Shown here in pieces: positions 19,480 through 22,281 of a stretch of 33,784 nucleotides of DNA (position 1 is the stretch's first letter; each line of letters begins with the position of its first letter). This DNA is from Pelagibacteraceae bacterium AG-325-J13 (GTDB lineage Bacteria; Pseudomonadota; Alphaproteobacteria; Pelagibacterales; Pelagibacteraceae). Both the position numbers and the translations under genes were made by a program. The stretch lies in NCBI GenBank assembly GCA_003282835.1, contig QBYL01000007.1:1-33784 (forward strand). The letters run 5' to 3'. The notes under the pieces are model-generated. The model was not told the origin of the DNA. It saw nothing but the letters and a program-made list of their open reading frames with translations, and did not search any database.

Positions 19480-21306
19480 ATGGAAAAAAATTTATTTATT
19501 GATGCCTCGCATCCAAACGAAACACGTATTGTTCTTAAATCAGATTCTTCAATTGAAGAGTATGAATTTGAAGACAAAAATAAGTTAAATTTTAAGAATA
19601 ATATATATCTCGGTACAATCAGCAGGGTTGAGCCATCTCTTCAAGCTGCATTTGTAAATTTTGGAAGAGTAAGGCACGGCTTTTTAGCATTTAATGATAT
19701 CCAGTCAGATTATTATCAAGTTCCATCTGAAGATAAGGAAAAAATTAGGCTTGCTGAAGAGCAAATAAGAGAAAACTTAAAAAACAAAACATTAGAAAAT
19801 AATTCAGATGAAAAGAATACTAATAATGAAAAAAATAATGAAGAAAATATTGATGATAAATCACCTAATAAAAATAGTGAGTCATCAAAAAAAGAATATA
19901 GAGAAGAGTTAAAAACTTCTTATGGATTAAAGAGATATAAAATACAAGAAGTTATTAAACCAGGCCAAGTAATCTTAATTCAAGTAATTAAAGAGGAGCG
20001 AGGACAAAAAGGAGCTGCTTTAACAACATTTATTTCTTTAGCTGGAAAATATATTGTGTTAATGCCTAATACTCCCAAAGGTGGAGGAATTTCCAGAAAA
20101 ATTTTTAACTCTTCAGATAGAAACAAAGTAAGGGCTATTTTAAATCAGATTGAAATTCCAAAAAGTATGGGAGTAATTGTAAGAACTGCAGGAGCAAATA
20201 AATCAAAAAATGAGATCGAAAAGGATTTTAAAAATACTTTAAAAACTTGGGAAGTTATCGGAGAAAAAGCTCTAAATTCTAATGCCCCCTCATTAGTATA
20301 TGAGGAGGGAGATATTATCAAAAGAACTTTAAGAGACACATATGATAATGAAACTAAGAATGTTTACATAGATGGAAATGATGCTTATCAAAAGGCTAAG
20401 AAATTTATGAAGGAGTTAATGCCTAAAAATGTTAAAAATATAAAAAAATATAGAGGCAAAATTCCATTATTTCATGACGCTAATATAGAAAAAGAATTAA
20501 ATAATATTTTTGAACCTACGGTTAAATTAAAATCTGGTGGCTATATAGTTATAAATCCAACAGAAGCTTTAGTGGCTATTGACATAAATTCAGGTCAATC
20601 CACAAAACAAATTAATATAGAAAAAACGGCTCTTAATACAAACCTTGAAGCTGCAGAAGAAATAGCTCATCAAATTAAATTAAGAGATTTGTCTGGTTTA
20701 ATCGTTATTGATTTTATTGATATGATGAATTTTTATAACAGAAGATCGGTTGAGAAAAAGATGAGAGAAAGCATAAGGAAAGATAGAGCGAGGATACAAG
20801 TTGGCAGAATAAGTAATTTTGGCCTACTTGAGATGACAAGACAAAGACTTAGAGAAGGGTCAATCAAATGGGAAACTATTCTCTCTTTGGAGTCCTTTGC
20901 TCAAAAAATTATAAAAAAGATAGAACTATTAGCTTTTACTAATAAAATAAAAATAATTAAATCATACGTTCCAGAAAAAGTAAAACTTTATATAGAAAAT
21001 AAATTATTAAAAGAAATTGAATATTTTGAGAAGAAATACTCTTTAAAGATAAACTTTATGGCAGACGCTAAATTGATTATACCTGAATATAAAATAGAAC
21101 TTTTAAATAAGTCTAAAAAAATCATTAATACAATTGAAAATGTAAACAAAATATTTGAAATTGAAACAAACTTAGACTATGTGGAAAAGGTTAAAGGTAA
21201 AAAAACTGAATTAAAAGCTAATTCAAAAAAAATTAAAAAAATTAAACAAAGTAAAAAAAAAATAAAGGCGCCGAGAACTTTATGGTTTAGAAAAAAACGC
21301 TCTTAA
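19480..21306 (+). CDS. rne: Ribonuclease E/G family endoribonuclease
   Basis: Endonuclease of mRNA decay and rRNA/tRNA processing. It has 608 residues. The N-terminal RNase H-like/S1 part ([22 protein letters not shown]) is split by a Glu/Asn/Lys-rich insert (about 83-145) before S1 resumes at [25 protein letters not shown]. 5'-sensor and DNase I-like parts follow, with the Mg-binding aspartates D368 (AIDINSG) and D411 (VIDFIDM). After [10 protein letters not shown] (448-457) the family's CPxCxG zinc-link is absent; the whole protein has no cysteine. The tail is very short and basic, ending [12 protein letters not shown], so there is no large degradosome scaffold. The 4-bp 3' overlap with thiG is convergent. 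Confidence 0.94.
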
Positions 21307-22076
21307 ATTATTCCTTTAGTGGGTGAGCTTGGAATAGCAAAAAAATTTTTTTTCATGCGGCCAGCTAAAAAAGACTCTCTTCCCGACATTACTGCGTTTT
21401 TAAAAGCTTTTGCCATCAATAAAGGATTCTTGGCTTGCGCTATAGCACTATTAACTAAAACGCCATCACAACCCATTTCCATCGCAACAGTTGCATCTGA
21501 TGCAGTGCCAATGCCAGCGTCTACAATTACTGGCACTTTTGATTGTTTTATAATTAAAGCAATATTCACCTTGTTTTGTAAACCTAAACCAGAACCTATT
21601 GGTGAAGCCAATGGCATTATTGCAGATGCTCCGTAATCTTCTAATTTTTTTGCTAGCAAAGGGTCATCGGTACAATAAACCATAACTTTAAAACCTTCTT
21701 TAACTAAAATTTTTGTCGATTTAATAGTTTCAATCATGTTGGGATATAAAGTTTTTTTATCTCCTAAGACTTCTAATTTAACTAATTTCCAACCGCCCAT
21801 TTCCCTTGCGAGTCTTAAAGTTCTTAATGCATCGCTAGATGTAAAACAACCTGCGGTATTAGGTAAATAAATTATTTTTTTTGGATTCAAATAGTCCGTT
21901 AAAATTGGTTTTTTTTTATCCAAAATATTCACTCTTCTTACAGCTACTGTTACCATATCAGCCCCTGACATTTTAATTGCTTCTGCGGTTTGTTTAAAAT
22001 TTTTATATTTCCCAGTTCCTACAATTAATCGAGATTTGATTATTGTTTTATCAATTTTAAAAATATCTTTTTTCAA
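21303..22076 (-). CDS. thiG: Thiazole synthase
   Basis: Forms the thiazole phosphate of thiamine from deoxyxylulose-5-phosphate, dehydroglycine and ThiS-thiocarboxylate. It is a TIM-barrel enzyme of 257 residues with the start chosen here. The Schiff-base lysine is in LVKLEVLGD. Other motifs are [37 protein letters not shown] and [14 protein letters not shown] chose the TTG at 22076 because AGGAGG (22090-22085) lies exactly 8 nt upstream. The alternative GTG at 22085 sits on top of that Shine-Dalgarno sequence and inside thiS. The remaining thi genes are not in this window. SAR11 strains are known to lack thiC and need exogenous pyrimidine precursor, while keeping the thiazole branch. Confidence 0.95.
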
Positions 22077-22077
22077 T

Positions 22078-22281
22078 TTACCCACCTCCTATGAAGTGCA
22101 CTACTTCTAACTTATCATTCTCTTTTAAAATTGTTTTTTTTAAATTTGTTCTTGGGATAATAAAACCGTTGCATTCTATTGCTAATTTTCTGCTATCAAG
22201 CTTATATCTTTTTAAAATATCTAGCACAGATGACTTAGGTTTGATTGTAATTTTTTTTCCATTTAATTGAATTTTTGCCAT
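22078..22281 (-). CDS. thiS: Thiamine sulfur-carrier protein ThiS
   Basis: A 67-residue ubiquitin-fold sulfur carrier whose C-terminal glycine is adenylated and thiocarboxylated to deliver sulfur to ThiG. The tail EVVHFIGGG ends in three glycines, and VNGxxI-type spacing is seen in [11 protein letters not shown] (36-46). It is the first gene of a two-gene unit with thiG, one nucleotide apart, and divergent from aroQ with only 32 bp between start codons. Confidence 0.93.
22085..22090 (-). promoter_or_regulatory. thiG ribosome binding site inside the thiS tail
   Basis: AGGAGG, the strongest Shine-Dalgarno match I noticed in this window, is formed by codons of the conserved ThiS C-terminus (GGA GGT GGG TAA for the final Gly-Gly-Gly). 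Its 8-nt spacing to the TTG at 22076 decides the thiG start. Confidence 0.8.

Follow-up and report, generated by a model that had tools for sequence, protein, structure and literature searches.

How is RNase E assembled, and is it likely to be active, when the zinc site shared by its protomers in Escherichia coli is missing? The question is raised by a gene in a 33,784-nucleotide stretch of DNA (hereafter the window; contig QBYL01000007.1, assembly GCA_003282835.1) from Pelagibacteraceae bacterium AG-325-J13. The organism belongs to the Pelagibacterales (SAR11), marine bacteria that are extremely abundant and among the most numerous on Earth. The gene (19480..21306, plus strand) encodes an Rne/Rng-family ribonuclease of 608 amino acids. 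In E. coli RNase E a pair of CPxCxGxG motifs is described as sharing one zinc, while the small domains join dimers into the tetramer; published accounts describe this Zn-link as conserved in RNase E/G and as required for the tetramer and for full activity of the E. coli enzyme. A first-pass annotation of the window had proposed that the protein lacks the CPRCxG motif and contains no cysteine at all, that its quaternary structure must be maintained in another way, perhaps as a dimer, and that the retention of D368 and D411 argues for an active enzyme. Here we show that the absence of the Zn-link extends throughout the sampled Pelagibacterales, in which a shortened linker with an invariant Trp and Leu occupies its place, and we consider how such an enzyme might be assembled without the metal.

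The segment at issue, bases 20821-20940, encodes residues 448-487, and its RQRL sequence (454-457) is not followed by CPxCxGxG. When the protein was aligned with E. coli K-12 RNase E (rne, NC_000913.3), C404, C407, G409 and G411 all fell opposite a gap, and alignment with relatives that carry the motif (Zn-type) revealed 11 absent columns between window residues 467 and 468. The place of the Zn-link is thus taken by a short, metal-free linker comprising residues 455-469 (20842..20886, plus strand). As the translation also has no Cys in its 608 residues, both the missing motif and the lack of cysteine reported in the first-pass annotation were confirmed. The complete absence of Cys, however, was given undue emphasis, as the number of Cys residues differs freely from one relative to another. 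In the family of the window protein (n=88), 37 sequences contain none, 22 contain one, 25 contain two and four contain three, while members of a second Pelagibacterales family have between zero and four; Zn-type relatives commonly contain ~3-5 by a stop-to-stop count. Zero cysteine was thus rejected as a distinct feature in an order in which the number ranges from 0 to 4, and its occurrence in the window protein appears to be incidental.

It could be argued that the missing motif reflects a common variant of the Alphaproteobacteria that uses another metal site. The alignment of SAR11 RNase E/G proteins suggested in the first-pass annotation showed, however, that CxxC is absent from all 104 distinct Pelagibacterales sequences, which have the 11-residue excision in common. 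These comprise 88/88 members of the window's family, from 71 genomes of 12 genera and 20 named records, and 16/16 of the second family, from 15 genomes of four genera and one named record. The second-family and named rows were placed in the Pelagibacterales by group codes, record titles and, for some, by tree. In contrast, CxxC is kept in 182 of 184 distinct rows with a readable segment from other Alphaproteobacteria (132 genomes spread over 94 families, plus 58 named records; a few genes are counted twice through different loci, such as L204/L223 and L207/L225). In those bearing the motif 12 residues always separate RQR from the first Cys, and the two exceptions are a sequence cut off before the motif (L224) and one in which the codon of the first Cys contains an ambiguous base (L275). 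The 132 genomes are those whose sequences were read among 289 class genomes searched; they are a non-random set, mostly better matches and reduced genomes, and lie outside the Pelagibacterales and the two other Zn-less lineages (f25 and G329) considered below. Nine rows stand outside the CxxC count: L216 and a Pelagibacteraceae fragment, L298, stop short of the motif, while L198, L199, L203 and L219-L222 fall outside the motif pattern yet show CxxC in the alignments. The survey included 80 named genome records, in which the Pelagibacteraceae with a readable segment all lack CxxC; those of Parvibaculum, the PS1 clade, Rickettsiaceae and Holosporaceae carry it, as does one of two SAR116 records, the other having an ambiguous base. 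Reduced genomes (0.6-1.5 Mb) of other alphaproteobacterial lineages also retain the motif. In other classes of the Pseudomonadota CxxC was present in 71/71 rows, consisting of E. coli and 70 RNase E or G sequences (30 loci and 40 taken out of a longer list), with the full CxxCxGxG in 69. A common alphaproteobacterial variant is thus ruled out, and the sequences indicate that a metal-free form spans the sampled Pelagibacterales and is neither an error nor a quirk of one strain. No RNase E/G match was returned from eight of 99 genomes in the search of the family, nor from 15 of 147 in that of the order, three of these being >90% complete.

The linker that replaces the Zn-link is itself conserved. 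Pelagibacterales sequences share the pattern RQRL[RK][EQ]xx[IV]xWxxxL[ST]xx[ST], in which W464 (20869-20871) and L468 (20881-20883) of the window protein are invariant in 104/104 sequences, an invariance that holds down to ~45% protein identity. Across the same 104 sequences no column of the linker or small domain contains Cys or His in at least 70% of rows. Only positions 11, 66 and 274 carry His at that level, and beyond 274 there is neither a Cys nor a His column, so that there is no obvious substitute metal site.

The remainder of the protein keeps the catalytic and 5'-sensor residues of the family. D368, N370 and D411 correspond to D303, N305 and D346 of the E. coli enzyme, as the first-pass annotation had held for the two aspartates, and the equivalents of the catalytic D303, N305 and D346, of K112 and of the 5'-sensor residues R169 and T170 occur in 104/104 Pelagibacterales rows. 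Those of F57 and F67 are present in 102/104, the remaining two rows having gaps. The full-length protein was modelled with AlphaFold2 (mean pLDDT 76.9, pTM 0.62) and the model compared with known folds; among the matches listed its large domain superimposed on E. coli RNase E (2bx2) with Z 28.2 and rmsd 4.8 over 382 residues at 48% identity. The continuous alignment of this model goes no further than approximately E. coli residue 402, and its linker (455-469) shows no regular structure, with pLDDT of 62-75 by blocks of ten. The small domain was therefore re-modelled together with the DNase I domain (residues 345-556; mean pLDDT 89.0, pTM 0.54). The partial model followed both domains of the E. 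coli enzyme (2vrt_B, chain residues 280-498; Z 20.9, 197 residues) with an rmsd of 10.2, which we put down, without being sure, to the modelled angle between the domains. Against the DNase I domain of Vibrio cholerae (6x2d_B) it gave Z 20.9 and an rmsd of 0.9 over 109 residues. The DNase I-like catalytic domain, with D368, N370 and D411, extends over approximately residues 345-454 (20512..20841, plus strand; PF10150). The small domain (RNase_E_G_Thio, KH-like) covers approximately 470-556 (20887..21147, plus strand), with a PF20833 match at 467-540 (E 1e-7; 32.4 bits against a cut-off of 26.8). In view of this match and of the course of the partial model along E. coli 280-498, the small domain is predicted to be still present after the link with its fold kept.

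Whether other parts of the enzyme changed along with the linker was explored by a scan for columns that have one residue in ≥85% of Zn-type rows yet keep it in <15% of Pelagibacterales. The 14 positions recovered are mostly mild swaps, together with E398 and a motif of the small domain, L452-N453-x-K455-R456. E398, next to W464, is replaced by K in 68 and Q in 15 of the 104 Pelagibacterales and is retained as E in 14. The lost LNxKR motif (E. coli 452-456) corresponds to window residues 506-510 (20995-21009, plus strand), in a region where the alignment is less certain than in the large domain. N, K/R and K/R of NxKR are all present in 159/182 Zn-type alphaproteobacterial rows, compared with 0/104 Pelagibacterales, and the equivalent of E. 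coli K455 (window position 509) is F, L, M or Y in 99/104. We know of no function assigned to LNxKR. A coupling of its loss to that of the zinc ligands is suggested only within the Pelagibacterales. Of the residues listed for the duplex groove of E. coli RNase E (PMC6202311), R3, Q22, H268, Y269, Q270 and K433 are not kept in the window protein, although most vary in Zn-type rows also; R488 and R490 of that list sit in a poorly aligned tail.

How, then, might the Pelagibacterales enzyme be assembled? We propose that the ancestral Pelagibacterales enzyme lost the 11-residue zinc-binding hairpin between the large catalytic and small domains by excision, and that W464 and L468, which flank the site of the deletion, became fixed. 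Dimerization would most likely still take place through the self-complementary DNase I-domain interface, yielding the principal dimer. In E. coli the self-contact of this domain is reported to dominate the principal dimer (PMC2631609) and, because the active site is described as being formed at that interface (PMC6202311), a DNase I dimer probably persists in SAR11. W464 and L468, probably together with position 509, would hold the small domain in place by a metal-independent hydrophobic contact, although the contribution of W464 to such a contact is a guess from the sequences. Streamlining, followed by fixation of the new joint, would be the plainest account of the loss. On balance we lean towards a clade-wide, metal-free Rne/Rng endoribonuclease that is active, keeps the DNase I-domain dimer and packs W464 and L468 where zinc sat, while emphasizing that we infer both the activity and the mode of dimerization in SAR11. 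A tetramer is conceivable as well as the dimer suggested in the first-pass annotation, because the protein appears to have retained the small domain through which dimers contact each other in E. coli; with LNxKR lost, this contact may be altered. A more ambitious version, in which the zinc hairpin, the linker acid and LNxKR gave way together to the invariant Trp/Leu and to a small-domain surface of hydrophobic character, so that an active but differently assembled RNase E would be found order-wide and f25 would represent an intermediate step, is put forward only tentatively.

Several observations weigh against this proposal. The model is less reliable in the linker (pLDDT 62-75) than in most other regions, and the placement of the two domains relative to each other is unsure, as reflected in the pTM of 0.54 and the rmsd of 10.2 to the E. 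coli enzyme. Certain divergent Zn-type rows (L192, L207 and L217) have likewise lost NxKR, while the Zn-less G329 keeps NEKR; thus, loss of the motif is not strictly tied to loss of the zinc ligands. In addition, no zinc binding in vitro is reported for a Caulobacter RNase E fragment (451-898) that contains CxxC (PMC12510024). The motif may therefore not hold zinc in every member of the class, in which case its loss would be a smaller step.

The most serious competing explanation is that the enzyme was reduced to a dimer or even a monomer as a dispensable Zn-link and tetramer contact decayed during streamlining, with W464 and L468 serving only the folding of the linker. The small genomes of the Pelagibacterales (0.7-1.6 Mb), the short protein and the loss of LNxKR along with the zinc ligands are all in keeping with such a reduction, as is the title of a 2006 paper (Caruthers et al.), which speaks of a core that is active when the domain required for tetramer formation is missing. 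Decay alone, however, leaves unexplained a Trp and a Leu that are invariant across the order, the small-domain fold is retained, and other Alphaproteobacteria with similarly reduced genomes keep CxxC. We thus regard reduction as possible but rather unlikely. In a draft genome that is 80.8% complete, a gene in decay or a mistake in sequencing or assembly might be suspected. Such an error, which the first-pass annotation had itself raised, is refuted by the relatives, as the Zn-less state recurs in 104 distinct sequences that derive from numerous assemblies; most matches have no internal stop and all keep the catalytic residues, leaving this explanation with a negligible probability.

The remaining alternatives concern the metal itself. 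Surface-ocean zinc is scarce, and the disappearance of the zinc ligands could represent zinc sparing. This is not favoured because DnaJ, a protein with several CxxCxGxG motifs, was found in 30/30 Pelagibacterales genomes searched; among 25 DnaJ loci read, 24 have four copies of the motif and one has three. Although DnaJ is a single control protein, its motifs also speak against a general loss of CxxCxGxG. One marine SAR116 enzyme and one of the PS1 clade, moreover, keep CxxC, and we consider zinc sparing improbable. The same marine records count against the idea that removal of CxxC protects the enzyme from copper or oxidation by preventing a disulfide of the kind described in Caulobacter crescentus, where Cu2+ is reported to oxidize the CxxC pair and to make RNase E condensates more solid (PMC12510024); to this we give marginally less credence still. 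Another metal site in place of the Zn-link is very unlikely in view of the lack of conserved Cys or His in the linker and small domain of the 104 sequences, although one built from Asp/Glu or backbone only would be conceivable. The objection that a common alphaproteobacterial variant had simply adopted a different site fails on this ground as well as on the retention of CxxC elsewhere in the class.

The Zn-link has also been lost outside the Pelagibacterales. In family f25 (L227-L231), which derives from small genomes, CxxC is replaced by [GS]IIS with the length of the loop kept in 5/5 distinct sequences. G329 (L226, C14) has its own, separate deletion of the Zn-link alongside the intact NEKR in its small domain; it was given little weight, being the sole family member sampled and a poor draft genome (1.2 Mb, 80% complete) with ambiguous bases. 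In trees built without the linker columns the Pelagibacterales form one clade (support of 92 in a quick tree and 98/90 in a more careful tree of 56 rows, from which 32 of 88 had been dropped), and f25 groups, with weak support (81/62), with a sequence from the Rickettsiaceae. The quick tree was initially read as setting f25 apart from the Pelagibacterales. That reading was dropped, as a single clade of the two was not rejected either on the quick tree (p-AU 0.82, the joined tree having the higher likelihood) or on the careful tree (p-AU 0.42). Parsimony on the quick tree requires three changes. The number of losses is thus put provisionally at two to three. Long branches make placement unsafe, and f25 may represent either an independent loss or an intermediate in which the ligands disappeared before the loop was excised.

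With respect to its identity, the window gene was the single Rne/Rng match found in the genome (921,506 bases, 80.8% complete). The protein matches PF10150 with 331.6 bits (cut-off 25.5; E 5e-99) and scores 471.4 against TIGR00757 (cut-off 325.95), placing it in the Rne/Rng family, while falling below the cut-offs of both the RNase E equivalog NF008074 (399.9 bits versus 908) and the RNase G equivalog NF008689 (288.1 versus 594). The Zn-link, although typical of RNase E and RNase G, is not regarded here as defining the family. The S1 domain holds a long Asn/Lys/Glu-rich insertion at residues 86-150 (about 19735-19929, plus strand), the length of which varies across relatives. The long C-terminal half is absent, and the small domain is followed by a short, Lys-rich tail (21148..21303, plus strand) that is predicted to be disordered (pLDDT <50 at 558-599 and 601-608). 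The last residues, 598-608 (21271-21303, plus strand), resemble a degraded form of the GWW tail, described as the PNPase-binding C-terminus of alphaproteobacterial RNase E (PMC3376730). GWW is found near the C-terminus in 16/16 sequences of the second Pelagibacterales family; among the 60 of 88 termini inspected in the window's family some are of an LW type and others plain Lys-rich. The end of the open reading frame overlaps by four bases (21303-21306) that of a convergent minus-strand frame of 260 amino acids (21303-22085), which presumably encodes a thiazole synthase resembling ThiG.

In the published record CxxC is presented as conserved across alphaproteobacterial RNase E (a 2025 paper, PMC12510024), and C404 and C407 are placed among the highly conserved residues of RNase E, and also of RNase G (a 2023 paper, PMC9841416). 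A 2017 paper (PMC5436854) describes the RNase E proteins of Rickettsiales and Pelagibacterales as short (≤720 amino acids), and its main text never mentions zinc; within the open-licence literature we found no report of Zn-link loss in SAR11/Pelagibacterales RNase E. A 2008 structure paper states that there is no known structural basis for the role of zinc and tetramerization in RNase E. A natural, clade-wide enzyme without the Zn-link thus offers a direct way to ask what zinc and tetramerization do for RNase E, and bears on RNA decay in SAR11, a dominant group among ocean bacteria.

Of the characterized enzymes, the window protein is most usefully compared with the catalytic half of E. coli RNase E (1-529), with which it shares the equivalents of D303/N305/D346, F57, F67, K112, R169 and T170. 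It differs in having neither CPxCxGxG nor LNxKR, in a linker that is 11 residues shorter, and in the absence of the duplex-groove residues R3, Q22, H268, Y269, Q270 and K433 and of the long C-terminal scaffold. E. coli RNase G belongs to the same family and likewise has no long C-terminal half; RNase G, however, is reported to carry the Zn-link cysteines itself (PMC9841416), and CxxC was present in the second-copy, RNase G-like rows from other classes. The RNase E of C. crescentus, from the same class, is described as having an insertion in its S1 domain (PMC4245959) and ends in the GWW that is common to the second Pelagibacterales family. It differs from the window protein in its reported CxxC at 461/464 and in the tetramer formed by its 1-575 fragment (PMC12510024, PMC4245959). 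FAU-1/RNase W (8wo8 and 8rza) matches the model only in part (Z 15.7 and 15.9, with ~150 residues aligned). Cyanobacterial RNase E, which also departs from the set of quaternary parts found in E. coli, is described as the reverse case, in which the Zn-link is kept and the small domain is absent (PMC10989914).
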